A stretch of 64,000 nt of DNA from Devosia oryzisoli (lineage in GTDB: Bacteria > Pseudomonadota > Alphaproteobacteria > Rhizobiales > Devosiaceae): contig NZ_JACYFU010000002.1 of the NCBI RefSeq assembly GCF_014837245.1, positions 930,001-994,000 on the forward strand, in the 5' to 3' direction. The notes below the pieces were generated by a model. That model was not told the DNA's origin and ran no database searches. It saw only the letters and a program-made list of their open reading frames with translations. Position 1 is the stretch's first letter; the number at the start of each line of letters is the position of its first letter. The translations under genes and the position numbers were made by a program. Shown here piece by piece: positions 42,091-59,075 of this stretch.

Positions 42091-42163
42091 GCGACCCGCC
42101 ATTCTGACCAAAGCAGCCATTATAACGCAGCGTTTGCGAGGAAATACCCCGGCGCAAAACCAC

Positions 42164-42290
42164 TGTCGATACCAAATGTATGCGGGTCGCCTAAGCCTCT
42201 GAAATTGCTTGAAGCACCAAATTCTTATGGGTCGATTTACCAAAGACTTTTGGGTCGATGTGTGCAGATTGCCAAAGGTTTTTGGGTCGC
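42164..42290. repeat. Left end of a Tn7-like transposon with four TnsB-site-like repeats
   Basis: The end begins TGTCGA at 42164. Four 20-bp repeats follow, all in the same orientation: 42171-42190, 42216-42235, 42239-42258 and 42271-42290. Their consensus is RCCAAANNNTTNTGGGTCGM, with CCAAA and GGGTCG invariant apart from one base, and spacing is uneven (45, 23, 32 bp). This matches the multiple TnsB-binding sites at the ends of Tn7-like elements, with 5'-TGT at the tip. The 5 bp outside the tip are ACCAC, the expected target duplication; the other copy would lie past the right edge of the window. Confidence 0.8.
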
Positions 42291-42459
42291 TTTCCACAAA
42301 AGTCCACTCTCCAACCGGCGCCTCTAATTGGTTTTCCAGAGAACGCATTTAGCTTCTTGAACGAATCCGGCATCCGGACGAACGTCACAGCGGGCATCTG
42401 CGCGCTCATGTCGCTTGCATGAGGCTGGTGTAGGGTGGCGTGCAGATAGAGGGGCGCAA

Positions 42460-44025
42460 ATGACCGATAACTCACCGCAAAAATTGCAGTGGTCGAAATT
42501 GCTCTCCAAAGAGCGCTGGCCGCGGGAGACCCCGGAGGAGGAAGGCGACACCACGCGGCCAGACTGGATGACCGTCAGCCGCACCGAGACAGAGCGTGAC
42601 TACGATCGCATTCTCTTCGCCACCCCAACACGGCGCTTAGGAGATAAGACGCAGGTGTTCCCGCTGGAGAAGAATGAAAGCGTCCGGAACCGACTTACTC
42701 ATAGTCACGAAGTAGCGAACTTGGCCCGCTCCATCGGCACCCATCTGGTCCATAGCGAACTCGGAAATCTGATCATAGAGGACGCGATCAGCGGCGGTGA
42801 ATGGAAGGAGGATGAGGTTAAGCGTGCCGTACCGGCCATTTTGGCGGCCGTAGGGTTGGCACACGATATGGGAAACCCTCCCTTCGGCCATCAGGGTGAA
42901 GCCGCCATTCGAGACTGGGTAACTTCGAGGGAGCCGACCCTCTTTCAGGTGCGCGAGGATACTGCCGGATACTCGGCTGGAGATCTAATCAAGGCTGACG
43001 TAGACCGGCTTACTAAGCAGCACCGCGAAGACTTCCGGCAGTTCGAGGGAAACGCACAAACCCTACGGACCCTGACGCGCCTGCAGGTGGTCAAAGATAA
43101 CCGTGGGCTCAACCTGACCTTTGGAACTCTCGCCGCAACGATGAAATACACCGTGGCGTCTGATCATGTGATTTCCGAGGCGCCCGCGCACGGGAAAAAG
43201 GTCGGCTACTTTGCGGCCGAAGCAGATCTCGTAGCGACAGTACGGACAGCAACGGGGCTATCGCATGGCGAGATGCGACATCCGCTAACCTACCTGATGG
43301 AAGCGTGTGACGATACCGCTTACTCCATAGTCGACATTGAGGATGCCGTTAAGAAACAGATCGTCTCTTTTGCCGACCTGATTGACTGGTTGAAGAATGA
43401 CGAAACGCTGAAGGAAGACGAGCTTGCCCAGTGGGTCCTCGCGCAAGCTGAGGCTGGAGCCAACTCTGCCCGCCGGGCGAAGCTATCTTCTGCGGAATTT
43501 AACGACGTCTCGATGCAGATTTTCCGGGCTTCAGCCATAACCGCGTTTGTAGCAGCCACGATCAAGTGCTTCACTGCGCATTACGATGCCATTATGACAA
43601 CGGGCCTTGAGAAGTCCCTGCTAGACGTGAGCCTTGCAGCACCTCTTGCAAAGTCCATGAAGAAATTTGCCTTCAACAATGCCTACAAGCATCGCGAAGT
43701 GCTGAAGATTGAGCTCAACGGTTTCAACACCATCCATGGTCTGATGGACATGTTGTGGCGTGGCATCAGCGAACGAGAGAGCTTTGCCGATCCAAAATCA
43801 CCCCGAACCACGCCATTCACTCGCTACGCCTACAGCCGCATCAGCGAAAATTATCGGCGCGTCTTCGAAGGGCGAGACACTGCCAAGCGGGCAAGCGATG
43901 ACGCCCTGCCGATCCGTTACCGTGAACTGCAGCTGCTGACAGATATGGTCGCAGGTATGACTGACCAGTACGCGATCGACCTCTACAACGAACTGAAGGG
44001 CTTCCATGTCGGCGCTTCCGCATAG
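42460..44025 (+). CDS. dGTPase-like HD-domain triphosphohydrolase
   Basis: About 521 aa. The N-terminal RDYDRILFATPTRRLGDKTQ and NRLTHSHEVANLARSIG, then VGLAHDMGNPPFGHQGEAAI (HD pair at about 135-136), are hallmark dGTPase sequences; a later Asp comes in EACDDTAYSIVDIED. The enzyme hydrolyses dGTP (or other dNTPs) to nucleoside and triphosphate. dGTPases acting as anti-phage enzymes by draining dNTPs are known. The ATG at 42460 was chosen over earlier in-frame starts that add residues unlike the family. It is the first cargo gene inside the left end and overlaps the next gene by 20 bp. Confidence 0.85.
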   Translation: MTDNSPQKLQWSKLLSKERWPRETPEEEGDTTRPDWMTVSRTETERDYDRILFATPTRRLGDKTQVFPLEKNESVRNRLTHSHEVANLARSIGTHLVHSELGNLIIEDAISGGEWKEDEVKRAVPAILAAVGLAHDMGNPPFGHQGEAAIRDWVTSREPTLFQVREDTAGYSAGDLIKADVDRLTKQHREDFRQFEGNAQTLRTLTRLQVVKDNRGLNLTFGTLAATMKYTVASDHVISEAPAHGKKVGYFAAEADLVATVRTATGLSHGEMRHPLTYLMEACDDTAYSIVDIEDAVKKQIVSFADLIDWLKNDETLKEDELAQWVLAQAEAGANSARRAKLSSAEFNDVSMQIFRASAITAFVAATIKCFTAHYDAIMTTGLEKSLLDVSLAAPLAKSMKKFAFNNAYKHREVLKIELNGFNTIHGLMDMLWRGISERESFADPKSPRTTPFTRYAYSRISENYRRVFEGRDTAKRASDDALPIRYRELQLLTDMVAGMTDQYAIDLYNELKGFHVGASA

Positions 44026-44827
44026 ATCCGACGCCCGCACTCTGCTGCGCAAACGGGCGCACTACTTCTTCTCAACTGCCAGGAAGCGCAGGTCGGAAGT
44101 CGCGGCCTTTGCTGCCGACCTCGAGAAGTTGGGAGAGACCGTCGCCATCGGCGGCTTTCTTCGTGATCTTCACCTGAATGGCAATCGCCATTTCTCGTCG
44201 GACGTTGACTTCGTCGTCAACCCCCACTCTTTGACCGACTTCGAGCGGATGATGCGCTCGATGGATGCAGTTCGAAACAGATTTGGCGGCTACGCGATTC
44301 AGCAATCGCGCTGGAAGGTAGAGGTGTGGCCTCTCGCGTTAACGTGGGCTTCGGTCGAGAAGTATGTAGATGTTCGATCCATCAGCGATCTACTCAAGGT
44401 AACGTTTTTCACTTGGGATTCGGTTCTGTACTCCGTGTCACACGGCAGGATCATCACTACCGAGGATTACTTCGATAACGTCGGTAAACGCCTCCTAGAC
44501 GTTAACCTTCGTCCGAATCCCAATCCCGTCGGCAATGCGGTACGGGCAATCAGGTACGCTCACAAATGGCGTGCCGCTATTGGGAAACAATTGGCCATCC
44601 ACATAGCTCAACAAGTTAAAGACGTCGGCTGGGACCAGCTTGCCAAGTATGAGAGGCAGTCATTCCCCCAACCGATTTTGGCGTTTCTCGATGGCGAATC
44701 CATCCAGTCTGCGATCGATAAGTTCATCGAAGCGGATGAGCAAAGCCATCAATTGTTCGGGGACCCCGCTCAGTTGACGCTGGCTCTGGGAGCCCTGTCT
44801 TCATCACCGGAGAGCGAACGGCACTGA
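44006..44827 (+). CDS. Polymerase-beta-fold nucleotidyltransferase (CCA-enzyme-head-like)
   Basis: A 273-aa protein. AIGGFLRDLHLNGNRHFSSDVDFVV contains the GG...RD and DxD motifs (Asp at about 66 and 68) found in CCA-adding and poly(A)-polymerase heads and other minimal nucleotidyltransferases; the rest is helical. It starts within the end of the dGTPase gene, so the two are translationally coupled. Its substrate is unknown. The pairing suggests a two-part defence or toxin system in which the transferase modifies RNA or protein while the dGTPase acts on the nucleotide pool; this is inference. Confidence 0.7.
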   Translation: MSALPHRSDARTLLRKRAHYFFSTARKRRSEVAAFAADLEKLGETVAIGGFLRDLHLNGNRHFSSDVDFVVNPHSLTDFERMMRSMDAVRNRFGGYAIQQSRWKVEVWPLALTWASVEKYVDVRSISDLLKVTFFTWDSVLYSVSHGRIITTEDYFDNVGKRLLDVNLRPNPNPVGNAVRAIRYAHKWRAAIGKQLAIHIAQQVKDVGWDQLAKYERQSFPQPILAFLDGESIQSAIDKFIEADEQSHQLFGDPAQLTLALGALSSSPESERH

Positions 44828-44867: not shown

Positions 44868-45662
44868 CTAGGCGTCGACCATGGCCTCATGCAGCTTCAG
44901 CATAGTGACCACGCCTTCGCCTGGGACGCGAAACGACTGCTCGGTGATCTCGTATCGATCGGCGCCGTTCGTGTTGAACCAGGCGTCGGCACCAATCTTT
45001 CGCGGAAAACCCTCGTCGCGCGCATCGGGATTGTGAAGCAACTCGAATGCAAAGCTCTCGGCGTCCAGCTCGTCGCGGGGGAACCAGTACCCAGGGATTT
45101 TCTTTGCCGCCCTGAACCATTTTCTGCCGGCGCTGGCATGGTGGTGGATCATCATCAGATTGGGATACCGATCGCTGTCGATTACCCGGATCAACGTAGC
45201 TGTAAGGCTGCACTGAAACCGTTCTGCAATCGCCTTCAGCGCCTTAAGGTCCATCTTCGGGTGCTGCTTGCATGCTTCCTTGAAAAGCGGCCACGGCATA
45301 AGGAGGTCGGCAGCGTACTGGTCCGCGATCCGCTCCACCTGGTTATTCTTGGAGTACTTTCCTATGTCGGTTGAGCGGCAAGCTACCGTCTGTCCGCGAT
45401 GCTGCGCCCAGTGACCCAACTCGTGGGCGATAGAAAATCGCACACGGGAGGGCATAGAGTCCGGTAACACCGAGATGATGCCACGGTCGCCCAGACCGGT
45501 GATCATCGCTTCGCAGCTCTTCAGACGGCGACGCTTGATCTTCAAACCAGCGTAGTAGGCAATAGCTTCAATATCGATGTCTTCAGCACGCTCGATTCCT
45601 AACGAGCTCAGCAAGGCATCCGGTCGAAGATTCGTAGGGAGTGGATCAATCCTCTTCATCAC
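44868..45662 (-). CDS. ImmA/IrrE-family metallopeptidase
   Basis: A 264-aa protein with RFSIAHELGHWAQHRG (HExxH, His80-Glu81...His84) and the downstream QVERIADQYAADLLMP stretch with the third zinc ligand, the standard ImmA/IrrE core; a C-terminal region of unknown role follows. Family members cleave repressors or sigma/anti-sigma partners to switch on mobile-element or stress genes. Its start overlaps the end of the preceding acidic-protein gene by 17 bp. It is last in a minus-strand set (sigma factor, small acidic protein, peptidase) running away from the ubiquitin-like operon. Confidence 0.85.
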   Translation of the reverse strand: MMKRIDPLPTNLRPDALLSSLGIERAEDIDIEAIAYYAGLKIKRRRLKSCEAMITGLGDRGIISVLPDSMPSRVRFSIAHELGHWAQHRGQTVACRSTDIGKYSKNNQVERIADQYAADLLMPWPLFKEACKQHPKMDLKALKAIAERFQCSLTATLIRVIDSDRYPNLMMIHHHASAGRKWFRAAKKIPGYWFPRDELDAESFAFELLHNPDARDEGFPRKIGADAWFNTNGADRYEITEQSFRVPGEGVVTMLKLHEAMVDA

Positions 45663-46017
45663 GGACTTCCGCCTCCAGCTCCGCTATATCTTCTGCTATT
45701 GCATCCAAATCGGCGTCCATAGTGCCGTCTCCGAAACGCGCCGCCAACGTCACTTGGGCCGATGTATCACCGGCTTTTGCACGAGCCAGAAGCCGCCTAG
45801 CATTTTCTAGGTCGAGAACAGTTGCCGACGCCCCTTGTTTAAGTGACGAACCTGCCTTCGCTCGCTCCAAACGGGCTCGTGCCAGCTTTTTCTCACCAGC
45901 TGCTATCGCATCGTTGAACATGTTGAGATTGTCCTGATCATCAGGATTTACATGTTCTTCGCCGGACAGAATAAAATCTATCAAGCTATCCATTTGATCT
46001 TTCTTGTGGTCAGCCAT
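45646..46017 (-). CDS. Small acidic protein of unknown function
   Basis: A 123-aa, largely helical, Asp/Glu-rich protein (MADHKKDQMDSLIDFILSGE at the start; ATVLDLENARRLLARAKAGD in the middle; an acidic C-terminus). I recognise no family. Its ATG at 46017 lies within the last bases of the sigma-factor gene, and it overlaps the ImmA/IrrE gene at its other end. That position between a sigma factor and a peptidase is where an anti-sigma factor or a cleavable regulator would sit, but this is only a guess. Confidence 0.6.
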   Translation of the reverse strand: MADHKKDQMDSLIDFILSGEEHVNPDDQDNLNMFNDAIAAGEKKLARARLERAKAGSSLKQGASATVLDLENARRLLARAKAGDTSAQVTLAARFGDGTMDADLDAIAEDIAELEAEVRDEED

Positions 46018-46765
46018 GAGACTGTCCCTCCCTCGCGCGATACGCGGCGATAAACTTGTCCACCTGACGCTTGAACCGGGTCCGCAGTGCAGCCAGCCTC
46101 TTGGTGTCAACACCAATGGTGCCTTCAAGCTCTTCACCGCGGAGACCTTCCTGAAGGCCCATCAGGAGCATCTGCATTTCTTCGTCGCCTTCAAAATGCC
46201 GATCCAGGTGGTCATACATCTCTTCCACAAGGGCCTTCTGCTGGAGCTCCAGGGTGTTGTCGGCCGCCTCAACATCCAGCACCTGGTCACCCGCCAACGC
46301 CGAATATCCGCCGGCGATTTTCTCCACCTTCCGGGAGTCGGGGAGGAAGGACGCGTCGGAAGCCAGGCTTTTCATTACCCCCGCAAAGAACTGGACGAAG
46401 CTCTGGCTTCGCTTCCAGCGCCTCGTGCCGCTTACCGTTCTGACATAGGCCTCGCTGATGAGCTCGTCTGCGGACGCGAGATTTTCCCGAGCCGCCAGGA
46501 TCCGGGCAATCCGACCCAAACTTACTCGGTCAGTGTCGCATAGCGTCTGGAAGGCCTCACGAGCTTTCTCCGCCTCGTAATGTTCGTCATCAGATATGTC
46601 AGCTTGGTCCACCGAGCTCTCCGTGGAATTTGGCAGTCTTGTATCTTGCCCGCGCCACTCTATTTTTTCTACCTCTCCATCTGTACTTATCTTGCGCTCG
46701 AGGCGGCGAATTCCGACACGAGATTTTTCTTTGTCGGAATCTGCTGGCTCGAACGCATCCCTCAT
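46010..46765 (-). CDS. ECF-like RNA polymerase sigma factor
   Basis: About 251 aa. The segment around ASADELISEAYVRTVSGTRR and SFVQFFAGVMKSLASDASF resembles sigma-70 region 2 of ECF-type factors. The C-terminal LQEGLRGEELEGTIGVDTKR with LRTRFKRQVDKF resembles the region 4 helix-turn-helix. An about 65-residue charged N-terminal extension precedes them. I used the ATG at 46765. It is divergent from the ubiquitin-like operon, with only 44 bp between the two start codons, so it may direct transcription of that operon or of itself. Confidence 0.65.
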   Translation of the reverse strand: MRDAFEPADSDKEKSRVGIRRLERKISTDGEVEKIEWRGQDTRLPNSTESSVDQADISDDEHYEAEKAREAFQTLCDTDRVSLGRIARILAARENLASADELISEAYVRTVSGTRRWKRSQSFVQFFAGVMKSLASDASFLPDSRKVEKIAGGYSALAGDQVLDVEAADNTLELQQKALVEEMYDHLDRHFEGDEEMQMLLMGLQEGLRGEELEGTIGVDTKRLAALRTRFKRQVDKFIAAYRAREGQSHG

Positions 46766-46809
46766 AGGGACGGCTCGCCGTCGTAACCACAAGCTATGAG
46801 GGCTTGAAG

Positions 46810-47916
46810 ATGACCAGCAATGAAAACACCGTCGCGCTTGGCCGCGGCAACCGCACTGTCACCGTTGAGATCGCCAGAACGGACCTTGCCTTCCACCCCG
46901 TCGAGATCGATACCGCCACTCCTACCGGCGGCAAGATCGCCAAGGTGGCCGGCTTCAACTCCGACCAGCACCCCCATGTGATGCAGTGGCTGCCGGACGG
47001 TGACCTCGAGGACATCCGCGTCCAGGAAGAAGCCGACTTGAGCAAGAGCATCAAGTTCATCGTCGCCGAGAACAGCAGCTCCCACCGCATCACGATCAAC
47101 GACGAAACCCTCGACTGGCCCGCAGACGTGATCTCTGGCGCAGTGGTGCGCAAGCTGGGCAAGATCGACCCGGCGGACGACATCTACCTGGAGCGCGATG
47201 ATGAGCCGGACCTTCTTGTCCGGGACCAGGACCTCATCAAGATCAAGGCAGAGGGTGTCGAGGAGTTCAAGAGCCGCAAGCCGGACGTCTGGAAGCTCAA
47301 TGTGCAGGGCAAGGTGATCGTCTCGAAGTCGTCGACGATCTCCGCAGCCGATGCGATGGCCGAGGCGAACTTCGATCCCAATGCCTGGATCATGATCCTG
47401 AAGGTGCAGGGGCAGCCGAAGCGTCAGCTGCAGCCCAGCGACGTGATTGATCTCACTACACCGGGCATTGAGAAGATCCGGCTCACTGCCAAGGACGTCA
47501 ACAACGGCGAGGCGCCTCCTGCGCCCCGCCGTGACTTCGCCCTCCAGTCGGTAGACGAACAGTACCTCGACGCGTTGGGTTTCCGCTGGGAAACCGACGC
47601 CACCGGCCGCTGGCTCATCATTCACGACTACCCGGTGTCGCCCGGGTACACGGTTACTAAGGTGACGCTGGCCATCCAGGTTCTGCCGACTTACCCGCAG
47701 ACCCAGATCGACATGTTCTACGTGTATCCGGCACTGGTGCGTCGGACCGGCGGCGCGATTCCCGCCACCCAGACCACGGCGACCATTCGGGGTCTCTCCT
47801 TCCAGCGTTGGTCGCGCCACCGCGGGGCTGGCTCCAAGTGGAACCCCAAGACTGACAACGTGATCACCCACCTCGCCATCGTGGAGTCCGCCATCGCCAA
47901 AGAGGTGGGGCAATGA
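46810..47916 (+). CDS. Multi-ubiquitin-like protein fused to an E2-like domain
   Basis: About 368 aa. Three consecutive beta-grasp (multiubiquitin-type) domains can be seen at about 12-80 (VEIARTDLAFHPVEIDTATP), 90-150 (HRITINDETLDWPADVISGA) and 160-230 (WKLNVQGKVIVSKSSTISAA). An E2-family-E-like domain follows at about 248-368: YLDALGFRWETDATGRWLII, LPTYPQTQIDMFYVYPAL, and GLSFQRWSRHRGAGSKWNPK. The whole protein has no cysteine, so a normal E2 thioester is impossible. It starts at an ATG just downstream of a short divergent promoter gap and overlaps the JAB-E1 gene by 4 bp. Confidence 0.82.
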   Translation: MTSNENTVALGRGNRTVTVEIARTDLAFHPVEIDTATPTGGKIAKVAGFNSDQHPHVMQWLPDGDLEDIRVQEEADLSKSIKFIVAENSSSHRITINDETLDWPADVISGAVVRKLGKIDPADDIYLERDDEPDLLVRDQDLIKIKAEGVEEFKSRKPDVWKLNVQGKVIVSKSSTISAADAMAEANFDPNAWIMILKVQGQPKRQLQPSDVIDLTTPGIEKIRLTAKDVNNGEAPPAPRRDFALQSVDEQYLDALGFRWETDATGRWLIIHDYPVSPGYTVTKVTLAIQVLPTYPQTQIDMFYVYPALVRRTGGAIPATQTTATIRGLSFQRWSRHRGAGSKWNPKTDNVITHLAIVESAIAKEVGQ

Positions 47917-49310
47917 CGCCGAACATCACGCTTGCCTTCGCCGGCGTTACCCATACAGCCCTTAAGCGTCACTTGTTCCCTGGTGACGGCAATGAAGCTG
48001 CCGCCGTCCTTCTGTGCTCTGCTTCGCCGGGTCCACGCGACCGGTTGATCGTCCGCGAGGTGATCATGGTTCCGCACGCTGACTGCAAACGCTGGCCCGA
48101 CTACATCACCTGGCCGGGTAGCTATATCGAAGATGCCATTGATTCAGCGGAAGCCGATGGCTTGACGATCGTGCTGCTGCACTCTCACCCAGGCGGATGG
48201 CTGGACTTTTCGAGCATCGATGACGACAGCGACGCACGGGTTATTCCCGGGCTCCTCGAGGCACTGGGAGATCGTCACGGCTCGGCTATCATGACGCCCG
48301 ATGGCGCGGTCCGAGCCAGGCTTTACAACCGTGACATGAATTGCATGCCTGTGGACCTTGTCACCGTGTCGGGAGACGACATCCTCTACTTCTGGAACGA
48401 CGCCATCGCTGATGGACTATTGGCTCCGCGGCCGCTGGCATTTACTGGGCCGATGACAAAGGAGTTGTCGAGGCTTTCAGCGGCAGTCATCGGAGTATCC
48501 GGCACCGGGTCCATCGTGGCAGAGCAGTTGGCGCGGCTCGGCTTCGGCCAGATTGTCCTGATCGATTATGATCTGGTGGAAAAGAAGAACCTCAACCGCA
48601 TCCTGAACTCGACGACCGCAGATGCTGCTGCCCGTCGCCCCAAGGTTGAGATGTTCGCCGACGCCATCGAGACCTACCGTGGCCCGGGAGTCGCCCTACC
48701 AATCGACCAAACGATCAACAGTCGCGATGGCGTCCTCGCGGCCGCCCAATGCGACCTTCTTTTTAGCTGCGTGGACAGCCAGGAAGGGCGGCAGATACTG
48801 GACCTGGTGTGTTCGGCGTTTGTCATGCCGCTTTTCGACGTGGGCGTGACCATCCCGACTCATGAAGGCAACGGGGCGGTGGAGATTATCGACGTTTGCG
48901 GGCGCGTGGATTACGTGCAGCCCGGGGGTGCATCGCTGGCCGATCGCGACGTCTACACCCAGGAGGGCATACGGGCGGAGTTCCTTCGCCAGACCAACTC
49001 CGAAGCATTCGAGGCAGAACTCGCGGACGGGTACATCAAGGGCATCGTGGAAGAAGCTCCGTCGGTGATCACTCTCAACATGCGGGCCGCCGCGGCAGTC
49101 GCCACTGAGTTCCTGGCGCGGGTCTATGCTTTTCGCCAGGAGCCCAACAGGCACTATGCCAGGACGAAGTTCAGTCTCGCCGATTGCGAGGAAACGTATT
49201 GGTCGGAAGACGCCTTCCCCTCTGAACGCGACGACCTGCTTGGGCGTGGTGCATCGGAACCTCTTCTCGGGCTTCCTTCGCTTGCAGCCCAGCGGAGGGA
49301 TGCAGCATGA
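47913..49310 (+). CDS. JAB deubiquitinase-like / E1 ubiquitin-activating-like fusion
   Basis: A 465-aa two-domain protein. The N-terminal JAB/JAMM metallopeptidase domain has Glu28 and LLHSHPGGWLDFSSIDDDSD (H-x-H-P...S-x-x-D; His90, His92, Asp103). The C-terminal ThiF/E1 domain starts at about 190: VIGVSGTGSIVAEQLARLGF (nucleotide loop), VLIDYDLVEKKNLNRIL (Asp, Asn and Arg of the adenylation site). It should adenylate a ubiquitin-like C-terminus and also trim or remove the modifier. It is coupled at both ends (4-bp overlaps) to the multiubiquitin-E2 and DUF6527 genes. Confidence 0.87.
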   Translation: MTPNITLAFAGVTHTALKRHLFPGDGNEAAAVLLCSASPGPRDRLIVREVIMVPHADCKRWPDYITWPGSYIEDAIDSAEADGLTIVLLHSHPGGWLDFSSIDDDSDARVIPGLLEALGDRHGSAIMTPDGAVRARLYNRDMNCMPVDLVTVSGDDILYFWNDAIADGLLAPRPLAFTGPMTKELSRLSAAVIGVSGTGSIVAEQLARLGFGQIVLIDYDLVEKKNLNRILNSTTADAAARRPKVEMFADAIETYRGPGVALPIDQTINSRDGVLAAAQCDLLFSCVDSQEGRQILDLVCSAFVMPLFDVGVTIPTHEGNGAVEIIDVCGRVDYVQPGGASLADRDVYTQEGIRAEFLRQTNSEAFEAELADGYIKGIVEEAPSVITLNMRAAAAVATEFLARVYAFRQEPNRHYARTKFSLADCEETYWSEDAFPSERDDLLGRGASEPLLGLPSLAAQRRDAA

Positions 49311-49651
49311 AATTTCTGGAGTTCTGGGTCAGGCGGCTCCGCAGGCTTTGGGATCGTTACGGTCCGGCCCGAGGGCTGATCGTTGTTGAAGGCGACACGT
49401 TGCCAGAGGGATTGCCTCGCCGGGACCTCGTTCTGCTGCGCGAGGACGGAGAGAACTGGAGCATCGGGATGCGTTGCCCATGTGGATGCGGTGCCACCAT
49501 CGAACTCATGGTCATACCTGAAGCAAGGCCCCGGTGGTCGATTACCACCGATGCGCAACGTCGGCCGACGCTTCATCCTTCGGTTTGGCGGAAAACCGGT
49601 TGCAAGTCCCACTTCTGGGTGCGTGAAGGACGAATACAGTGGTGTGACTAG
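49307..49651 (+). CDS. DUF6527 family protein of the ubiquitin-like operon
   Basis: A 114-aa protein with a compact Cys-rich centre, CPCGCGATIELMV (Cys57, 59 and 61), then LHPSVW, TGCKSHFWVREGRIQWC (Cys99, Cys113). It looks like a small zinc-binding fold. DUF6527 proteins are regular partners of multiubiquitin/ThiF operons; their role is unknown, and a target-recognition or adaptor function is possible. Its ATG overlaps the E1 stop. It converges with the tniQ gene 27 bp further on. Confidence 0.75.
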   Translation: MKFLEFWVRRLRRLWDRYGPARGLIVVEGDTLPEGLPRRDLVLLREDGENWSIGMRCPCGCGATIELMVIPEARPRWSITTDAQRRPTLHPSVWRKTGCKSHFWVREGRIQWCD

Positions 49652-49678: not shown

Positions 49679-51589
49679 TCACAGCAGCGGCTCTACCTTG
49701 GCGCGGTCATAGAGCAGCCCGCCCTTGACCTCGAGGTCGATCGCCGGCTGCACACCATTCACAGCGAGCCAGTTCCGGAGTTGGAGGCGTGATCGCCCGC
49801 TGCGAATGCCGATCTCGTTGGTCAGCACGTACTTGCCGGCGAATTCCATCACTTGGGCGTAGGGCACCATCTTGTCGGCGTCGACCGACAGCAGGCCGGC
49901 TTCAACGCAGGCGGTGAACACCGGATAAACGTAGATCCCCAGCATCAGGTTGGCATTGCCGATGGTGACGCGATCGAGGTCAGGTGCCGGAAGCTCGTAC
50001 AGGCGCTTGAGCAGGCGCTCTCGATCGATGTCGCTCGCCCTGACGGACACCGCCTCGGTCACTCCCCTTGTGGGCTCCTTGTGCAGAAAGGAGTTCACCC
50101 GATTGTAGAAGATGTCCTCCCACAACGGGAACCATGGCCGCCGGCCCGCCGGGAACATGAGCATGGCCTCACCGAAGGTCACGTAGCCTGGCTGCTTCTT
50201 CACCCGCGGGAAGATCTCCACGTAGTAGTCGAAGAGGTCGGTGATATCGCTGCCGTGGTAGTGTCTTCCCTCCAGGGTAAGGGTCGCTTCCACCCCTTGC
50301 GCCGGCTTCAACCACAGGCTGCTTGCGAAATCCTGGATCGCGTCCACGGGGAGCCCCAGGCGCCACCCCAAGGTCGACTCGGACACCAGCTGCTTGTAGT
50401 TGCGCAGGATGGCCTCGCCCTGCCACTTCATCAGGTTCAGCGGCGAGAACTCGGCCTCCTCCCCCCGCATGGTGAAAACATCAGGGTGCCGGGTGACCTT
50501 GAGCATCAGGCCATAGTCCACATTGAACTTGGCACAGAGCTCCTTTGCACCGACATATGCCTCGGATCGATATGCAGCGTTGCGTGGGACACCCTGGCGG
50601 GAAGCACTGGCTCGGAAGTAGCTCGCCGTGGCAGAAGCGATGATGTCCTTGGTGTCCAGATCGAGGTGAGGGTCTCTGCGCAGATTTCCGAGAGCACCCA
50701 GTTCTTTGTGAATGCCCCACTTGTTGCCACGTCGGTCGACACTGGCAGCCTGGGCTTCACAGAGCTTCAGAAAGCCTCGGGGCCAAGTGATGATGGCTCT
50801 CCCGGCTGCAGCCAAGGCGGATGGCTCAATCCCTCGGATACGACCGCGATTGATATTCGTAGGATCCAGCGGCCGCTGCGTATCGTGGTTAAGCATCAGC
50901 GCCGCGCCGATCGCCACGGCGAGCTCAAACAACTGCCCGCGATCCAGTACGCTGAGGCTGTCGTGCAGCGACGGCATGGTTCCGCGCCGCCGCTCCGGAT
51001 CGGGATCGATGAGAGCCGTAACGAAATCCAGCGCCGCTTCGTCTGCCACCTCTACGAGCTCTTGCGGGAAATCCCGCAAGTCTACCTTCGAGACAGGCAG
51101 CCCGTATTCGTCCTCCCCGACACAGTGCTCGCAGAACTCCACCCCCCATGTCCGGGTGAACCCGAGATCATTGCCGCAGACGGGGCAGGCCGAGAGCAGA
51201 ATCTCCTTGGTCGACGGATCAAAGGTAAGCGGGCGCAGGCTCCAGACAGCCTTGATATATGGTGAGGCGCACAGTGCCCGGGGCGAGAGCCGGCGCCTCA
51301 ATGGTTCCCGGTGCTTCGCTCGCAAGTTGGTTCCGAAGAAGTCGATGTGACGGTCGCCGCGAGCAGGGTAGTACAACGGCTGAAGGAGGTCCGGGTTGGT
51401 GCCAAGCACCTGCGCCAAGCCACTGGCAGTTCCGGCGGACTGCATGGCGATTGACTCCGGCCGAAAACTGCCGACATCGGCCAATGCGAGCACATCGCGA
51501 GCGTGCGGGTAGACGTTGACACTGGCGGCCCGCGCCACCAGGCCCGCCAGATTTTCGTCGGGCATCGGGGTCACGGGCCGAACGAGCAT
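49679..51589 (-). CDS. tniQ: TniQ/TnsD-like target-selection protein
   Basis: About 636 aa. The N-terminal TniQ domain begins LVRPVTPMPDENLAGLVARA and has a zinc finger CPVCGNDLGFTRTWGVEFC, then EHC (Cys135, 138, 153, 156). The long C-terminal region, with several helix-turn-helix-like parts, makes it larger than minimal TniQ proteins and more like TnsD/TnsF, which bind a fixed attachment site. Its ATG overlaps the tnsC stop (TGATG), so I did not use the longer upstream start. It ends 27 bp from the converging DUF6527 gene. The attachment site is probably outside the window. Confidence 0.82.
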   Translation of the reverse strand: MLVRPVTPMPDENLAGLVARAASVNVYPHARDVLALADVGSFRPESIAMQSAGTASGLAQVLGTNPDLLQPLYYPARGDRHIDFFGTNLRAKHREPLRRRLSPRALCASPYIKAVWSLRPLTFDPSTKEILLSACPVCGNDLGFTRTWGVEFCEHCVGEDEYGLPVSKVDLRDFPQELVEVADEAALDFVTALIDPDPERRRGTMPSLHDSLSVLDRGQLFELAVAIGAALMLNHDTQRPLDPTNINRGRIRGIEPSALAAAGRAIITWPRGFLKLCEAQAASVDRRGNKWGIHKELGALGNLRRDPHLDLDTKDIIASATASYFRASASRQGVPRNAAYRSEAYVGAKELCAKFNVDYGLMLKVTRHPDVFTMRGEEAEFSPLNLMKWQGEAILRNYKQLVSESTLGWRLGLPVDAIQDFASSLWLKPAQGVEATLTLEGRHYHGSDITDLFDYYVEIFPRVKKQPGYVTFGEAMLMFPAGRRPWFPLWEDIFYNRVNSFLHKEPTRGVTEAVSVRASDIDRERLLKRLYELPAPDLDRVTIGNANLMLGIYVYPVFTACVEAGLLSVDADKMVPYAQVMEFAGKYVLTNEIGIRSGRSRLQLRNWLAVNGVQPAIDLEVKGGLLYDRAKVEPLL

Positions 51590-52632
51590 CACGCGGCCTG
51601 CCCGTTGACGGTGCCGCCCGCAACGCCTTCGCGGAAGGGGTTGTAGGTGCACATGTTGTTGGGAATCGCCCGGGTATCTACTGCGAGTGCAAGATCGTCG
51701 TATTCGACGCGGGTGCCATCCCGATCAAGGGCGTGAAACACCGCTTGTTCAAGGATGCGGGAGACGATACCCAGGCAGCCGCCCGACGCCGCCCACAACC
51801 GGTGAGGGATGTCGTTCTCGATGAGCTTGGTCTCCTCGGGAAGGAGCTCGTGCTCTTGGAGGAGCGCCGACGCCTCGATGCAATACTCGAGGAAGATTTC
51901 CTGATCCTTCGCCGAACTCCACTTGAGTGGCGAGAAGTCGATCTTTCCCATCTCCCGGTTGGTCAACTGCCGATCAATGGTGATGTGGTCCCGAGCAGCC
52001 GGGATGCCCACGAAGACCATCGGCACAAGGCCACGGATCAGCATGGTCTTCAGCGTGTCACTAACCTCCGTGCTCCGGATGATGTTGGACTTCTCCCTCT
52101 TCCCTTGCTTCACCTCGCTAGTTGCAAGGTGCTGCAGCTCGTCGAGGATGACGAGTTCCGTCTGTCGACCGAATGGCTGGCCGGTCACCGGATCCTTGAA
52201 CGTCCCCGAGAGATATTCGTACACGCGGCGCATGAGCACCGGCCCGCTTCCACTGTCGGCGCGAGGATCGCCAAGCTGGGTCAGGATGTCGACCGCCAGA
52301 GATCGCTTCGACGCGTTGGGCGAGAGGGTCACGTGGAGCACGATCCTCTGTTGCCTGGCGATCTCTTCGCGATCCATGTCCGCCGGGAACAGGCCACGCT
52401 CGATGGCCTCGGGGACAACCTTGTCCTCAATATAGGTGGTGATGGCCGTCGACTTGCCTGAATGCGTAGGCGCAAAGAACTCGATGTAGCGCTTGGGCCT
52501 GTTGGGGACCAGCCGGCCGAACTCCCGCGCCTCATCAAGCTTGTCGTGAACCTCCGGGATGCGCGGATGGTAGATGCGCATCATCTCGAACGCGGCTTCT
52601 ACGGCGCTGCGTCGCGGCTTGATGTAGCTCAT
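51589..52632 (-). CDS. tnsC: TnsC/TniB-type AAA+ transposition regulator
   Basis: A 347-aa AAA+ ATPase: Walker A YIEFFAPTHSGKSTAITTY (Lys60), Walker B ELVILDELQHLATSE (Asp164-Glu165), and sensor-like LVPMVFVGIPAARDH. TnsC forms ATP-dependent filaments on target DNA marked by TniQ/TnsD and recruits the TnsA-TnsB transposase. Its ATG overlaps the tnsB stop by 4 bases and its stop overlaps the tniQ start, so the set is made in fixed proportion. Confidence 0.88.
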   Translation of the reverse strand: MSYIKPRRSAVEAAFEMMRIYHPRIPEVHDKLDEAREFGRLVPNRPKRYIEFFAPTHSGKSTAITTYIEDKVVPEAIERGLFPADMDREEIARQQRIVLHVTLSPNASKRSLAVDILTQLGDPRADSGSGPVLMRRVYEYLSGTFKDPVTGQPFGRQTELVILDELQHLATSEVKQGKREKSNIIRSTEVSDTLKTMLIRGLVPMVFVGIPAARDHITIDRQLTNREMGKIDFSPLKWSSAKDQEIFLEYCIEASALLQEHELLPEETKLIENDIPHRLWAASGGCLGIVSRILEQAVFHALDRDGTRVEYDDLALAVDTRAIPNNMCTYNPFREGVAGGTVNGQAA

Positions 52633-55022
52633 GTCTGATCTCCCTTGTTACTCTTCTTGGCGGCGAGCCTTGCTCTCACCCTGGCGGCGATTGCCTCGGC
52701 GTCGACCACCACCTCCAACGCGGTACCCGGCAAGCCGGGGGGTCTGGGTGGGGCCGACTTCGCCTCTGCGGATTGTTCCTTGGCTTGGCGGTTCCGTTCA
52801 CGATTGGCCGCAGCCTTCCTTTGCCCGGCCTTGCCTCCGAAGGGCTTACCCTTCTTCACCTCGATCGCCTCTGGCGCACGTCTTGCGGCGGTGTCGTAAA
52901 CCACGCCGTGTTGATCATCGCGGGCGACCATGTCCACGTTGTCGCCGGGCATCAGTTCGGGCTCTGGTTCGACGCGAGCGTAGGTTCGCTTAGCGGGTCC
53001 CTTCATGGTCGGCAGGAGGTCCTTAAGGAACTTCCGGTACTCGACACGGGCCTTGGCCATATCCGCATCGGAATGGAAGTCGAGGTTCCGCTTCGTTGCA
53101 AACGCCTTGATGAGGTCCGCACCATACCAAGAGAGATTCTTGGAATAGGCCTGGCGGACGTTCGGCAATGTTACGTACTCCCGTTCAGTCGGATCCCATA
53201 CGTGCACCTTGGAGACGTCACCCGGATCCCACGACACTCGAACCATGACTGTGCGGGTTGAGGTCTTGCTGTGACGCTGTGCCCTTTCCTTGCCGAAGCG
53301 AGCGAGCCGGTTCATCAGCCTCGTGGTCAGCTCAGGATCGTGGAAGCGATGTCCCCAAACGAACACCCCCTCAGCGCTGAGCTGGCAGTTCTTCCCCTTG
53401 CCGAAAATCCTGTCGAGCAGTCCGACTGCATCGACCGTCGCCCTCTTGTGCTGCTCGATACCGCGACGCCACTTGAGGGCCGGGGCGATGCCCATTCCCT
53501 CGCCGGTATGAACCTCCAGGTGATAGAGGTTGACGATGGCGTTCCACATCGCCTTCTCAAGCAGGTACAGGGGGAAGACAGCTTCGACTTCCGGCTTCAG
53601 CTCCAGGGCCTGGCGCTCCTGCGGCGTGAGCGGCAACCCGCCGGGGAGCTTGTGCCAGATGACGGAGTTGAGGGTGCCGAAGGCACGTTCCACATAGGCC
53701 TTGTATGTCGGCATCTTCACCGGCGCCCATTCGACGTCGATACCGGCCGCTTCGCAGGCTGACTGGAACGAGGGGCTGACGAATTCCTTGCCGTTGTCGA
53801 CAATGATGGTGAAGGGCTTGCCCCAACCGTCGGCCGCTCCCTTGTCGTAGCCGTACGTCTCCCAGAGGAATTCCTTCTTGCGGACGACCTGCCTCAGGCA
53901 CCGTGCGACGGTGCTGACACTGGGTGGATCGAAGCCAAGCACGGCGCCGAGGATCATCCGGGAATACACGTCGAGTGCCAGCGTGAGGTACGGCCGCACA
54001 ACGAAGGCCGGCTCTCCGTGCTCGTCGTGGACCACCGCCCACACATCCACCTGGGTGTGGTCGAACATGACGTATTCCAGCGGGCGGGTGGCTTCGATCG
54101 CCTTGCCGCGGCCGCGGAAGCGACGGTTGGCGTTCTTTACTCCATATCGCTGGGCCCAGTGCCACCAGTCGGCATTCTGGTGGATCCACAGCCGGATCGT
54201 CTCGCCGCAGGGGATGGGGTGGTTCGACTTCCGGGGCTTCTTCGTCCGCTTAAGTCGGCCGTTCGCATCGCGATTGTCCACGTGCACGTCGACCGCAGCG
54301 CCTTCGATCTCCTTGAGTGGAAGGTAGTGCTCTTCGTCAATGCTTTCTGCCTCGGCGGCGAACTGCGCCAGGGCGTCGCCGATGGCGAAAGACTGATCGT
54401 CCCAATATGCCTCGATGGCCCGGTTCGCAGCTTCAACGACATCCTTCGGCCACCGCCGTTCTCTGTCGAGGGTGTCTCGGCGCTTGATGAAGTGGGTGAG
54501 GTGCCGTGCACCGGGCGTGCCGCATTCATCCACGGCCCGGAGCAGGCTGCTGGGAGAGGGCTTCCATGTGAACCCCTTCTCCATCGCCTCCGGCAGATGG
54601 TCCTTAATGAACTTCTCGATGCCCAGCCGTCCCCGTCCTACGTCCGGGGAGTCGTCGTACTTCATCACGTAGAAGCGGAGCGTGCGACGACGTTCGAGGT
54701 GTTCCTGCTGCTGGAGGCGCGCCCTGCGTTCCTTCAGAGTGATGTTCGGGTCGTCAGGGTCGAGGATTGTCCGCGGATCGATGTCGTGATCTTCAATGAT
54801 CTGCCGGTCTGCATCGAGGCGGATACGATTGGCCCTGCCATCTGAACGCATCTGGTCGAAGACGTCAGCGTCGACATAAATCTCCAGGTCTGTCCCCTCT
54901 CGCTTGAACTTGAGGCGACCGTCCCGCATCTCCTTGGCGAATTCGGCGAGCACCGGACCGTCGAATTCCGGGATTTGCAGCGAATACAGTTCGCCAACTG
55001 TGACATCGATCTGCGTCACCAT
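52629..55022 (-). CDS. tnsB: TnsB-type DDE transposase
   Basis: A 797-aa Mu/Tn7-type transposase. The N-terminal DNA-binding part is followed by an RNase H-like core with the DDE residues at Asp326 (HTQVDVWAVV), Asp409 (TIIVDNGKEFVSPSF) and Glu445 (YKAYVERAFGTLNSVIW), 35 residues between the last two. A beta-barrel and basic C-terminal tail (ending in Lys/Pro-rich sequence for TnsC contact) follow. It binds the 20-bp end repeats and cuts and joins the 3' ends. Its start overlaps the tnsA stop by 7 bases. Confidence 0.92.
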   Translation of the reverse strand: MVTQIDVTVGELYSLQIPEFDGPVLAEFAKEMRDGRLKFKREGTDLEIYVDADVFDQMRSDGRANRIRLDADRQIIEDHDIDPRTILDPDDPNITLKERRARLQQQEHLERRRTLRFYVMKYDDSPDVGRGRLGIEKFIKDHLPEAMEKGFTWKPSPSSLLRAVDECGTPGARHLTHFIKRRDTLDRERRWPKDVVEAANRAIEAYWDDQSFAIGDALAQFAAEAESIDEEHYLPLKEIEGAAVDVHVDNRDANGRLKRTKKPRKSNHPIPCGETIRLWIHQNADWWHWAQRYGVKNANRRFRGRGKAIEATRPLEYVMFDHTQVDVWAVVHDEHGEPAFVVRPYLTLALDVYSRMILGAVLGFDPPSVSTVARCLRQVVRKKEFLWETYGYDKGAADGWGKPFTIIVDNGKEFVSPSFQSACEAAGIDVEWAPVKMPTYKAYVERAFGTLNSVIWHKLPGGLPLTPQERQALELKPEVEAVFPLYLLEKAMWNAIVNLYHLEVHTGEGMGIAPALKWRRGIEQHKRATVDAVGLLDRIFGKGKNCQLSAEGVFVWGHRFHDPELTTRLMNRLARFGKERAQRHSKTSTRTVMVRVSWDPGDVSKVHVWDPTEREYVTLPNVRQAYSKNLSWYGADLIKAFATKRNLDFHSDADMAKARVEYRKFLKDLLPTMKGPAKRTYARVEPEPELMPGDNVDMVARDDQHGVVYDTAARRAPEAIEVKKGKPFGGKAGQRKAAANRERNRQAKEQSAEAKSAPPRPPGLPGTALEVVVDAEAIAARVRARLAAKKSNKGDQT

Positions 55023-55867
55023 GGGTGCGCACCCGGCAGTTCGAAGATCGCCATGTCGTCAGGCATCTTCATGATCGGCGACTCGGGCAGAAGCTGATGG
55101 CGGAGATCGATGCTGATGATACGGCGGACATGCAGGGCAGCACACTTGCCCAAACTGGAAGCGCCACCGCCAAGCTCAAGCAGCAGCTCCATGAGCATTG
55201 GAGTTGGGTTGCGCCCGAACACCGTCCGCACCCGATCAATGTCCCCGGGTGAGATGGCTACGTCATGGTCCAGGCAGAGCTGTCGGACCGATGACGCGAT
55301 CCGGTCGTTATCGAGGTCATGCGAGCGCACTACGGTGACGAAGTGCCAGTTGATGAATTCGTACACCTGACGGGCGAGCTGGAGCTTGCGTTCGTACAGT
55401 GGATCATCGATGCGAGGATCGTTGTCGTCCTTCACCTCCACCACAAGCCGTACATCGTGAGTGCGGTCGGATGGCTTCCATTGCGTGACGGCCTCGGAGA
55501 ACGGAACACCGGCCTGCACCTGCCGCACAATATGGGCATCGACGGTCAACAAGAGATCCGGCCGATACATCCACTCCTTGGAGTACCCGGTTACCTTCAT
55601 GAACAATTCATGTGGCTGGGCGAGGAGACGCAGTACAGGAGACGCCACCTCGCAGAGATTGATCATCGGACGCTCGGCCTTGACCGATTCCCAAGGCATG
55701 GAGCGCATCCCGGCCTTGATGCAGACCTTCGTGCCGACAACGTGCGGTTCGCGCCCGGTGATGAGATCTACGATCGGGGTGCCATTCTTCATGTACTCAA
55801 TGCGAGCGAAGGTTCTGAGTTGATCCACCTCGAGCTGGCGCTTTACGCGCTCGTATCCGGCGGCCAT
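55016..55867 (-). CDS. tnsA: TnsA-type endonuclease
   Basis: About 283 aa, close to Tn7 TnsA (273). The restriction-endonuclease-like core is visible as NLCEVASPVLRLLAQPHELF (Glu), MYRPDLLLTV (Asp) and VRLVVEVKDDNDP (E-x-K). TnsA cuts the 5' ends of the transposon so that, with TnsB, the element leaves by cut-and-paste. I chose the ATG at 55867 with GAGG 9 bases upstream; the open frame extends further but no good start is seen there. It is first in the tnsA-tnsB-tnsC-tniQ operon, after the hairpin at 56015. Confidence 0.82.
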   Translation of the reverse strand: MAAGYERVKRQLEVDQLRTFARIEYMKNGTPIVDLITGREPHVVGTKVCIKAGMRSMPWESVKAERPMINLCEVASPVLRLLAQPHELFMKVTGYSKEWMYRPDLLLTVDAHIVRQVQAGVPFSEAVTQWKPSDRTHDVRLVVEVKDDNDPRIDDPLYERKLQLARQVYEFINWHFVTVVRSHDLDNDRIASSVRQLCLDHDVAISPGDIDRVRTVFGRNPTPMLMELLLELGGGASSLGKCAALHVRRIISIDLRHQLLPESPIMKMPDDMAIFELPGAHPW

Positions 55868-56014
55868 TTCAAAGAGCCTCGGAAGCGGCGCTGTGAAGAA
55901 GCGCGAAGCTGAACAAGGATTGGAATTCGGAATGCGGCATAAAACTCCCCCGTGTGTCAGTTCTAGAGGGCGAATTCTTTGGAAATGCTGAGCCAGCAAG
56001 GCTAACGAGTGCTT

Positions 56015-56038
56015 GCTATGGCGCTGTCGCGCCATAGC
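56015..56038 (-). terminator. Hairpin terminator between the M41-protease operon and tnsA
   Basis: GCTATGGCGC and GCGCCATAGC form a perfect 10-bp stem with a 4-base loop, 14 bp after the stop of the 79-aa gene. On the plus strand CTTTTCT follows, so it is better as a terminator in that direction. On the minus strand it would still separate the protease operon from tnsA. Confidence 0.55.
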
Positions 56039-56052
56039 TTTTCTGCAGTTGG

Positions 56053-56292
56053 TCAGGACCCGTCCGGCGTCTCGGCGGGTCTGTCGCGACGGCGCCTGGC
56101 CAGCGGGAACCGCACCACCTGTTGGCCGGTGCGTTCCTCTTCCGGAATGCCGACCTTCCGCTCGGCATCGCATTGCACGGTCAGCGCGATGGCGAGCAGG
56201 GCGCGATGGGCGGCCTCCTCGAAGCTCTCCTCGCCGAGTTCGTCGTGAACCCGGAGGAGACGGGTCAGCACGCGGATCAGCAACTCATCCAT
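56053..56292 (-). CDS. Small partner protein of the AAA+/M41 protease
   Basis: A 79-aa protein. The start MDELLIRVLTRLLRVHDELG and the continuation ESFEEAAHRALLAIALTVQC are amphipathic helices; the tail is basic and Arg-rich (RRRRDR). It overlaps the end of the large protease gene by 8 bp. No known family is recognised. Coupling suggests an adaptor, inhibitor or DNA-contacting partner of the protease. Confidence 0.55.
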   Translation of the reverse strand: MDELLIRVLTRLLRVHDELGEESFEEAAHRALLAIALTVQCDAERKVGIPEEERTGQQVVRFPLARRRRDRPAETPDGS

Positions 56293-58249: not shown

Positions 58250-58794
58250 TGCTGCCTCGTTCTCCGGCAGGCAAATGGCCGAGCGACTACGCGCCCGCCA
58301 AACCTGGCCGGTTGCATGGGCGCGGTCTGCGCCCGGGATTAAAGATGTTCATGGGGTGCTCAGAAAAGGGGACGTTTGCCCCATAGTCGGTGGTCTATCC
58401 GGCCACGGGCCAGACGCACGGAAACGCAAGCAGTCGAGAGCCGCTTTCGCGTCTCCAGATCAGCTTCGCCGTCGTTGGTGATTGGATTGAACATGGGAGG
58501 GTACCCGGTGAGGCCCTCCCGAAAACTGCAGCTAGAGGTGCAGTCCGGAACGCTGGAGGACAACGCGATCCGAGCGGCTGCCGGTGGGCGCCGCCTGTAG
58601 GTTCTCGCGTTTGGATATCGTCTTCTGCGGGTTCATGACGGGAACAGATAGAGAACCTGAAAAGTGGTGTCAACAGGGTTCCTTGCAGCAGCGTCGTTCC
58701 TCTAGACGACACCACCCTCTCGAAGTAGGATGATAGATAGCTAAGTCGCTAGACGTGTAAACGTTTAAAGATCTAGCTATCTAGATGTTTGGAA
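58250..58794. promoter_or_regulatory. Divergent intergenic region with CTAG-rich palindromes
   Basis: A 545-bp gap with no convincing gene. Its right part holds a perfect 9-bp inverted repeat, AGATAGCTA (58735-58743) and TAGCTATCT (58774-58782), the 8-bp palindrome AAACGTTT, and several CTAG-containing words (TCTAGAC, GCTAGAC, TCTAGCT, TCTAGATG). They end directly before the ribbon-helix-helix-like gene, where such proteins usually bind. The left part shows nothing I can assign. Confidence 0.5.
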
Positions 58795-58995: not shown

Positions 58996-59075
58996 CCTCG
59001 AACCTCGATTTGAGACGTTGAGCATTGACAAAGAGCCCGTCTGCCCAGAGCCTTTATTGATACTTGGGGGCCAAA

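Follow-up and report, generated by a model that had tools for sequence, protein, structure and literature searches.

A Bub operon and its putative regulator as probable cargo of a Tn7-like transposon in Devosia oryzisoli

What does a bacterial system for ubiquitin-like tagging do on a mobile element, and what switches it on? The question is raised by three genes at positions 46810-49651 of a 64,000-nucleotide stretch of Devosia oryzisoli DNA (contig NZ_JACYFU010000002.1, positions 930,001 to 994,000; the window in what follows). Our answer, which we hold to be probable, if well short of certain, is that this bub operon and its own regulator are cargo of a 34.5-kb Tn7-like transposon inserted beside a tRNA-Arg gene, and that the system is triggered by DNA damage. 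The evidence concerns (i) the three proteins, (ii) the element that surrounds them, and (iii) a divergent set of regulatory genes that the operon shares with a viral contig and a megaplasmid.

The three genes and the Bub pathway

The trio runs in one direction throughout, with stop and start codons that overlap between the genes, the tight coupling that the first-pass annotation of this DNA had described:

46810-47916, plus strand: bubAB, a fusion of BubA (three beta-grasp domains of ubiquitin-like type) with BubB (an E2-like domain that lacks cysteine)
47913-49310, plus strand: bubCD, an N-terminal JAB/JAMM protease (BubD) fused to an E1-like adenylyltransferase (BubC)
49307-49651, plus strand: duf6527, a small protein with the putative zinc site C-x3-C-x37-C-x2-H

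The Pfam matches of all three proteins exceed the curated cut-offs: Multi_ubiq (PF14452, three stretches, E 1.8e-24) and Prok-E2_E (PF14462, E 1.4e-33) for the bubAB product, Prok-JAB (PF14464, E 3.1e-7) and ThiF (PF00899, E 4.8e-21) for the bubCD product, and DUF6527 (PF20137, E 3.5e-26) for the third. In a PDB sequence search, the window proteins were matched by the solved chains of BubA (9d59, E 2.2e-53), BubB (9eav, E 2.8e-39) and BubCD (9ea4, E 6.4e-149). Judged by these matches, the trio is a member of the Bub pathway of bacterial ubiquitin-like tagging, and the three beta-grasp domains, the JAB-E1 fusion and DUF6527 of the first-pass annotation are borne out. Its E2-like domain stands as a fold, supported by Prok-E2_E and 9eav, and falls as an enzyme: the last 130 residues of the bubAB product contain 0 cysteines, so that the domain is unable to hold a ubiquitin-like protein (Ubl) as a thioester. 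By its sequence, the BubB of the window is a pseudo-E2, and "E2-like" refers to the fold only.

This chemistry is not new, since an operon of the same type was predicted in 2006. The accessible text of Iyer et al. 2006 (PMC1779556) gives operon type 6e as one to three Ubl repeats, an inactive E2/RWD domain (on its own or as part of a fusion), JAB fused to E1, and a small protein that binds metal; the window trio has the same Ubl repeats, E2-like domain, JAB-E1 fusion and small Cys/His partner. It differs in that the zinc signature printed there is C-x3-C-x35-38-H-x2-C, whereas the 16 DUF6527 proteins aligned here end in C-x2-H. The pSYSX Bub operon of Synechocystis has a DUF6527 gene at the corresponding place, and this gene, though it carries another locus tag in the record, is plausibly the type 6e example sll6052. 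The pathway has since been named (BubA, BubB and BubCD of Citrobacter; Gong 2025 and Ye 2026, as cited in the accessible part of PMC13373217) and its structures solved, and the first-pass view that the system is poorly described compared with the BilABCD and CBASS-linked systems has to be given up. The window operon shares with Bub the domains, the fusions and strong sequence matches to the solved chains, and the Enterobacter CapS studied in that part of PMC13373217 (WP_001567865.1) is encoded on a plasmid of Enterobacter, upstream of a trio of this kind; the window operon differs by its place on a Tn7-like transposon with a sigma-like/CapH-like/CapP switch. BilABCD likewise has Ubl, E1, E2 and JAB parts within one operon, but as separate genes and, in the accessible text of PMC11354881, with an active-cysteine E2 (BilB), whereas the E2 domain of the window has no cysteine.

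The junction between BubA and BubB, NNG|E in the window, points to how the fusion is used. In all 17 fused BubAB proteins the residue before the junction is glycine, followed by E (15), D (1) or R (1); in this alignment the BubAB rows of L060 and L055 run a little past the genes, and stop signs located at the gene ends or beyond were stripped beforehand. BubA and BubB are separate genes in Synechocystis pSYSX (L064) and Methylocystis (L071), and both separate BubAs terminate in TEG at the matching position. Consistent with this, in the deposited structures a BubA chain stops at the matching glycine and a BubB chain begins there. Given the conserved glycine and the two naturally split BubAs that end at it, the JAB domain probably cuts the BubA-BubB fusion ahead of E1 activation.

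The active sites needed for these steps are intact in the window BubCD. Among 19 aligned BubCDs, the JAMM residues E28, H90, H92, S100 and D103 and the E1 residues G194, G197, G199, N226, N228, R229, K244 and D288 are all invariant. Within the E1 half, C286 alone among the cysteines is invariant; column 341, in a later E1 loop, holds S in 8 proteins, T in 8, N in 2 and C in 1. It is a speculative idea that the Ser/Thr of this loop (S341 in the window) replaces the E1 cysteine; a text search for oxyester, combined with three other words, found no paper in the library searched. The missing catalytic cysteine of BubB would also suit another use of the three Ubl domains, mainly as a non-covalent scaffold or oligomer, in which E1 and JAB would only process the fusion and no substrate would be conjugated. 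The invariance of the E1 adenylation residues and of the BubA terminal glycine speaks against this alternative, which we regard as distinctly improbable. A point in its favour is the title of a cited paper, which speaks of the oligomerization of bacterial Ubls.

The third protein is a putative zinc protein, as suggested by residues C57, C61, C99 and H102, which are common to all 16 aligned DUF6527 proteins together with conserved P, S and W positions. The PDB sequence search gave no convincing relative. Its structure model (mean predicted local distance difference test, pLDDT, 74; moderate confidence) shows a helix and beta strands, and comparison of the model with the PDB returned nothing at E 0.001 or better and nothing with Z >= 5; SH2-like rows in that same search were not trusted. 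The family is probably not exclusive to Bub, since DUF6527 occurs on six viral contigs (L088-L093) on which the other window genes are unmatched, and without an adjoining ThiF gene on a Shinella plasmid (L077), which was set aside from the Bub loci because the E1 is absent. As a side observation, an annotated ClpP-like protease subunit gene follows DUF6527 in 3 of 16 plasmid Bub loci, all from Rhizobium (L073, L074, L075), which suggests degradation of tagged proteins.

The Tn7-like element and its ends

The first-pass annotation had placed the trio on a Tn7-like transposon, and the surrounding genes and end sequences agree with it. The operon lies 27 bases from tniQ:

42164-42290, plus strand: left end, with terminal TGTCG and TnsB-site-like repeats at 42172, 42217, 42240 and 42272
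49679-51652, minus strand: TniQ-like target selector (Pfam TniQ match at E 0.015, under the cut-off; homologues in L037 and L041 share the gene order)
51589-52632, minus strand: TniB/TnsC AAA+ ATPase (Pfam TniB 1.8e-9; Tn6677 TnsC, 7rzy, E 5.9e-9)
52629-55022, minus strand: TniA/TnsB DDE transposase (Pfam rve 3.1e-9; D, D and E residues recognized in the sequence)
55016-56173, minus strand: TnsA-like endonuclease with a PD-...-EVK pattern (TnsA_like E 0.087; position next to TniA/TnsB)
56285-58249, minus strand: FtsH-like AAA+ M41 metalloprotease (Pfam AAA 4.4e-22, Peptidase_M41 5.3e-16)

TniQ and TnsA are named here largely by gene order, their sequence similarity being weak; the TniQ-like profile matched only ribosomal zinc proteins in the PDB, and no PDB relative of the TnsA-like protein was found. 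The left end begins at 42164 (TGTCGATACCAAATGTATGCGGGTCG) and continues into repeated CCAAA-CTT-TGGGTCG sites. An inverted right end (TGTCGGGCCAAATCGTGTGTGGGTCG) lies 12.7 kb beyond the window, at extended coordinate 76668 (L042:12668), which gives a length of 34,505 bp between the matched ends, with the bub operon inside them. Tn7 produces a 5-bp target duplication. Here, ACCAC flanks both ends on the outer side (left copy at 42159-42163), and 9 bases separate the target duplication from a tRNA-Arg(CCG) gene at L042:12683-12759. These features support a Tn7-like vehicle for the operon. A TnsABC/TniQ-type gene set (in the window with TnsA and TniQ as putative members), insertion beside a tRNA gene and defence-type cargo are also features of Tn7-like elements in the accessible text of Benler 2021 (PMC8649781) and a 2023 Mol Cell paper (PMC10293859); the FtsH-like protease beside the tns genes sets the window element apart. 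The words ubiquitin, ThiF, JAB and FtsH are absent from the main text of PMC8649781, and ubiquitin and FtsH from that of PMC10293859, as far as these texts were accessible.

Other positions for the right end were rejected. The abrupt end of homology at 58676, for which no partner end was found within the window, is more likely the -35 side of the promoter of the FtsH-like gene (putative TTGACA-N17-TATCTG at 58676, read by eye). An inner end at 74072 was discarded because its flank, TGAAG, differs from the left duplication ACCAC, and end-like stretches at about 76312 and about 76393 (found by eye) are followed by ATCGC and ACAGC. These three extra right-end-like sequences in L042 are perhaps the remains of earlier insertions at the same tRNA gene.

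It has to be considered whether the operon is a later insertion of another mobile unit between the ends, which would not move with the element. The cassette of operon and regulator is indeed found without a tni match on a Sinorhizobium meliloti megaplasmid (L060, 31 kb read) and on a Mu-like viral contig (L087, 16 kb read). Its position inside ends that share a duplication, 27 bases from tniQ, argues the other way, as does the Acinetobacter plasmid pXBB1-8, in which only 46 bases separate another Bub trio from tnsE and insertion sequences surround the trio. We therefore regard a later insertion as unlikely. No other tns gene is annotated within the 42 kb of pXBB1-8 that were read, and its trio is perhaps a remnant that provides a second link to Tn7-like elements. 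The tRNA-Arg site also recurs: a distant Bub locus in genome G018 lies between a tRNA-Arg gene and a 3' fragment of the same tRNA.

Several side observations concern the transposition genes and the protease. The genome itself contains a second related Tn7-like gene set (L041, G000:C1:248025-250049) with a TniA that is 44% identical. An FtsH-like gene adjoins TnsA/TniA-type genes in the window and, in the same genus, in L036, L037/L038, L040, L041 and L043; seven places of the FtsH-like gene or TniA were read, one of which (L039) showed the protease alone, and the count is biased since the places were chosen by matching one of these two genes. ClpX is known to remodel the Mu transposition complex, and by analogy the FtsH-like protease may remodel that of the present element. 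A GTTC-N7-GTTC motif, the form that the LexA box takes in alphaproteobacteria, coincides in part with the putative -10 of the FtsH-like gene (58642-58676) and was recognized by eye in 5 of 6 homologous promoters, the sixth (L039) having an N6 spacer instead of N7. In genome G051 (L036:7038-9538), the FtsH-like region is 90% identical to the window and the neighbouring TniA just 27%, as if the protease module had been exchanged between elements. Beside a related FtsH-containing element, a run of large genes (L043:51-10423) reads like a BREX set, judging by eye from the protein starts.

A divergent regulatory triad and the spread of the cassette

What would switch the operon on? Divergently from bubAB lie three genes that overlap one another:

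46010-46792, minus strand: remote sigma-factor homologue
45646-46017, minus strand: CapH-like 123-aa protein, overlapping both neighbours (PADLOC capH E 0.019)
44868-45662, minus strand: CapP-like M78 (ImmA/IrrE) metallopeptidase (PADLOC capP E 2.8e-58; Pfam M78; PDB 7t5t CapP E 2.4e-11)
46710-46740: conserved inverted repeat ATTCCGACA-N13-TGTCGGAAT, candidate operator

The candidate operator lies within the 5' part of the sigma-like frame, so that the true start is probably inside the frame. A profile of the sigma-like family (5 rows) aligns by hhalign with an ordinary extracytoplasmic function (ECF) sigma factor (Pfam r2 4.4e-23, r4_2 4.9e-16) at E 2.5e-6 and 88.8% probability, over 129 columns that cover regions 2 and 4, and remote homology to sigma-70 factors of the ECF type is therefore likely. 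Taken as single sequences, the window protein (E 0.019) and its S. meliloti homologue (E 0.004) match Sigma70_r2 below the cut-off. No helix-turn-helix (HTH) family was found in the CapH-like protein.

In the accessible text of PMC13373217, 219 of 544 Bub operons have CapW or CapH+CapP and 59 have CapK+CapS, and known CapP is described as activated by single-stranded DNA. The window resembles the CapH+CapP arrangement in its divergent placement and in an M78 protease that matches the solved CapP, and differs from it by the extra sigma-like gene and the weak CapH similarity. Among the frames of 26 loci searched with phmmer, the sigma-like and CapH-like genes recurred in L060 (S. meliloti pSINMEB01) and L055 (from the same genus as the window; CapH weakly), and CapP in L060, L055 and L072; L087, examined separately, has all three. 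L072 (Pontibacter) shows the same three-gene layout, with two first genes unmatched by that search. The window, L087 and L060 all keep the inverted repeat ATTCCGACA...TGTCGGAAT, the spacer being 13, 11 and 12 respectively, and in L055 a related repeat, TCGGACAT-N19-ATGTCCGA, encloses a T-run of similar kind; no repeat resembling the operator was found between the divergent genes of L072. After single-base shuffling of the three regions, a nine-base repeat with a spacer of 8-20 appeared in 11, 13 and 9 of 2000 cases. In the own genome, the repeat has no second place at 0 mismatches (the single site is matched once per strand), and it is a candidate operator of the divergent promoters.

A palindromic operator between divergent genes is what a dimeric repressor would be expected to use, and CapP is clearly present. 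The sigma-like protein might thus be an ordinary repressor, functionally a CapH, with the small protein as an accessory, and the triad a divergent form of CapH+CapP without a sigma/anti-sigma switch. However, it is the small protein rather than its sigma-like neighbour that shows the weak capH-type similarity, and the alignment of the sigma-like family with a true ECF sigma factor extends over both regions 2 and 4. The profile comparison lowers this explanation, which we see as possible and clearly short of an even chance, and raises another that we still put forward only tentatively, somewhat below evens: that the sigma-like, CapH-like, CapP, bubAB, bubCD and duf6527 genes with their operator form a mobile cassette, which moves among a Tn7-like transposon, a Mu-like prophage and megaplasmids and has a new DNA-damage switch, in which CapP would cut an anti-sigma-like CapH relative and so let a dedicated sigma-like factor fire the Bub promoter alone.

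Outside the window, L087, from a 44.5-kb IMG/VR contig, holds the whole cassette with identities to the window of 62% (sigma-like), 61% (CapH-like), 88% (CapP), 75% (BubAB), 74% (BubCD) and 75% (DUF6527). There, the cassette is bordered on one side by the gene of a minor head protein (PHROG 220, E 4.7e-84) and on the other by that of a head maturation protease (PHROG 328, E 2.5e-90), and genes for neck and baseplate proteins follow at a greater distance; we read the contig as Mu-like from this gene order and the PHROG families. It is the sole BubCD relative found in the IMG/VR collection by two conserved patterns, which gives a lower bound, and no BubCD-type protein was found among 50,697 phage records. 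In a tree of 21 BubCDs, the window, L087 and L060 group together (support 0.84), and L055 falls elsewhere, next to CapKS-type loci; on this basis, regulators seem to have been swapped between Bub loci. A search of 289 genomes of the class with the sigma-like profile matched 5, the own genome included, and found no triad in other settings. The match in L084 is an ordinary ECF sigma factor, which speaks for the sigma homology and not for the triad; that in L083 is a 315-aa frame with no Pfam match and no CapP nearby, and the two weakest (L085, L086) showed no match to the window genes used as queries.

The trio itself is sporadic, and the first-pass alternative that it might sit mainly in conserved housekeeping positions is not what the survey shows. 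Within the family, 6 of 136 genomes, all of them from the own genus, have a Prok-E2_E match above the cut-off; the corresponding figures are 3 of 385 for the class and 4 of 349 for the phylum, each count including the own genome, and 0 of 14 for control genomes; BubCD relatives are present in 161 of 72,556 plasmid records. When the genome contigs were scanned with a single protein instead of an alignment, L008 alone was returned. Neighbourhoods were read in 16 annotated plasmid loci (L061-L076) and the unannotated L060, a hand-picked and not a random sample, and the counts leave out the chromosomal loci L050, L051, L052, L056, L057, L100 and L101. Of the 16, 8 have an annotated M78/DUF955 protease divergently upstream; a CapK/CapS-like pair is present in 3 (in one of them with intervening insertion sequences) and an HTH gene whose partner is unnamed in 4, while 1 has none of these; DUF6527 is annotated in 13.

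Defence, stress and the proposed pathway

The function of the operon may be reflected in what else the element carries, where labels such as dGTPase and Druantia/DISARM-like are family names given by sequence and the functions are predicted:

42415-44025, plus strand: dGTPase-like HD hydrolase (PADLOC dGTPase E 2.1e-70; Pfam HD/HD_assoc)
44006-44827, plus strand: 273-aa protein, overlapping the dGTPase-like gene (unmatched in Pfam and PADLOC at the limits applied)
59064-64000, plus strand: DruE-like helicase, Druantia-type (PADLOC DruE E 4.2e-87)

The DruE-like gene starts a helicase/methylase/HNH set that runs past the window into L042, with a DpdE/DrmD-like helicase (E 1.9e-182), a DrmMI/type IIG-like methylase (E 5.6e-60) and an HNH protein (E 6.2e-22). 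These defence-type neighbours are circumstantial support for a defence role of Bub.

Together with the evidence above, a pathway in five steps can be proposed. By analogy with known switches, the sigma-like DNA-binding protein would be freed, or inactivated, at the operator at 46710-46740, and bubAB-bubCD-duf6527 would be turned on. BubD would then cleave the fusion at NNG|E and expose the C-terminal glycine of BubA, a step with strong sequence support, and BubC, with its conserved active-site residues, would adenylate this glycine. The next steps are speculative: the cysteine-less BubB could be a non-catalytic docking partner, with S341 in place of the E1 cysteine; BubA would be joined to targets, from which BubD could detach it, and the putative zinc protein DUF6527 may choose the targets. 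The likely outcome is a DNA-damage-triggered defence or stress response, and a role in defence is plausible.

Several points weigh against this proposal. TniQ (Pfam E 0.015) and TnsA (E 0.087) are weak by sequence. The joined flanks were searched and no genome had both together, so that no empty site was found and the case for the element ends rests on the repeats and the duplication; all 61 genomes searched were matched, and among the matches listed those outside the own genome fell on the tRNA part, except for one in G063, which was confined to the left flank at 74%. The similarity to sigma factors is remote and visible by profile alone, the structure model of the sigma-like protein is unusable (pLDDT 44), and the CapH similarity is weak (E 0.019). 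With regard to the E1, the invariant C286 could serve as nucleophile rather than S341, and position 341 is N in 2 of 19 BubCDs. Finally, phage protection has not been shown for Bub operons in the accessible text of PMC13373217. This last point, the presence of a CapP-type switch at the locus, and the addiction or protection role that Iyer et al. 2006 proposed for mobile E1/JAB operons (PMC1779556, accessible text) favour an alternative in which Bub is a stress or addiction module rather than an anti-phage system: DNA damage would induce tagging and untagging of host proteins, and persistence of the transposon would be helped. The dGTPase-like and Druantia/DISARM-like genes on the same transposon, which look like defence cargo, speak against it, and we consider it a real but lesser possibility than the DNA-damage-triggered cargo proposed here.

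In summary, the conjugation system is of a known kind, and what is new is its Tn7-like vehicle, the operator-bearing cassette and the Mu-like carrier, the divergent triad with the conserved operator being common to that viral contig and a megaplasmid of Sinorhizobium. Among prokaryotes, Bub represents a relative of ubiquitination, and its presence both in a Tn7-like element near defence-type genes and between the virion genes of a Mu-like contig connects it with mobile-element conflict. With the BubA-BubB junction conserved, the processing step can be tested directly, and the sigma-like triad, whose operator stands at a single place in the genome, offers a clean reporter for finding the trigger of the pathway.

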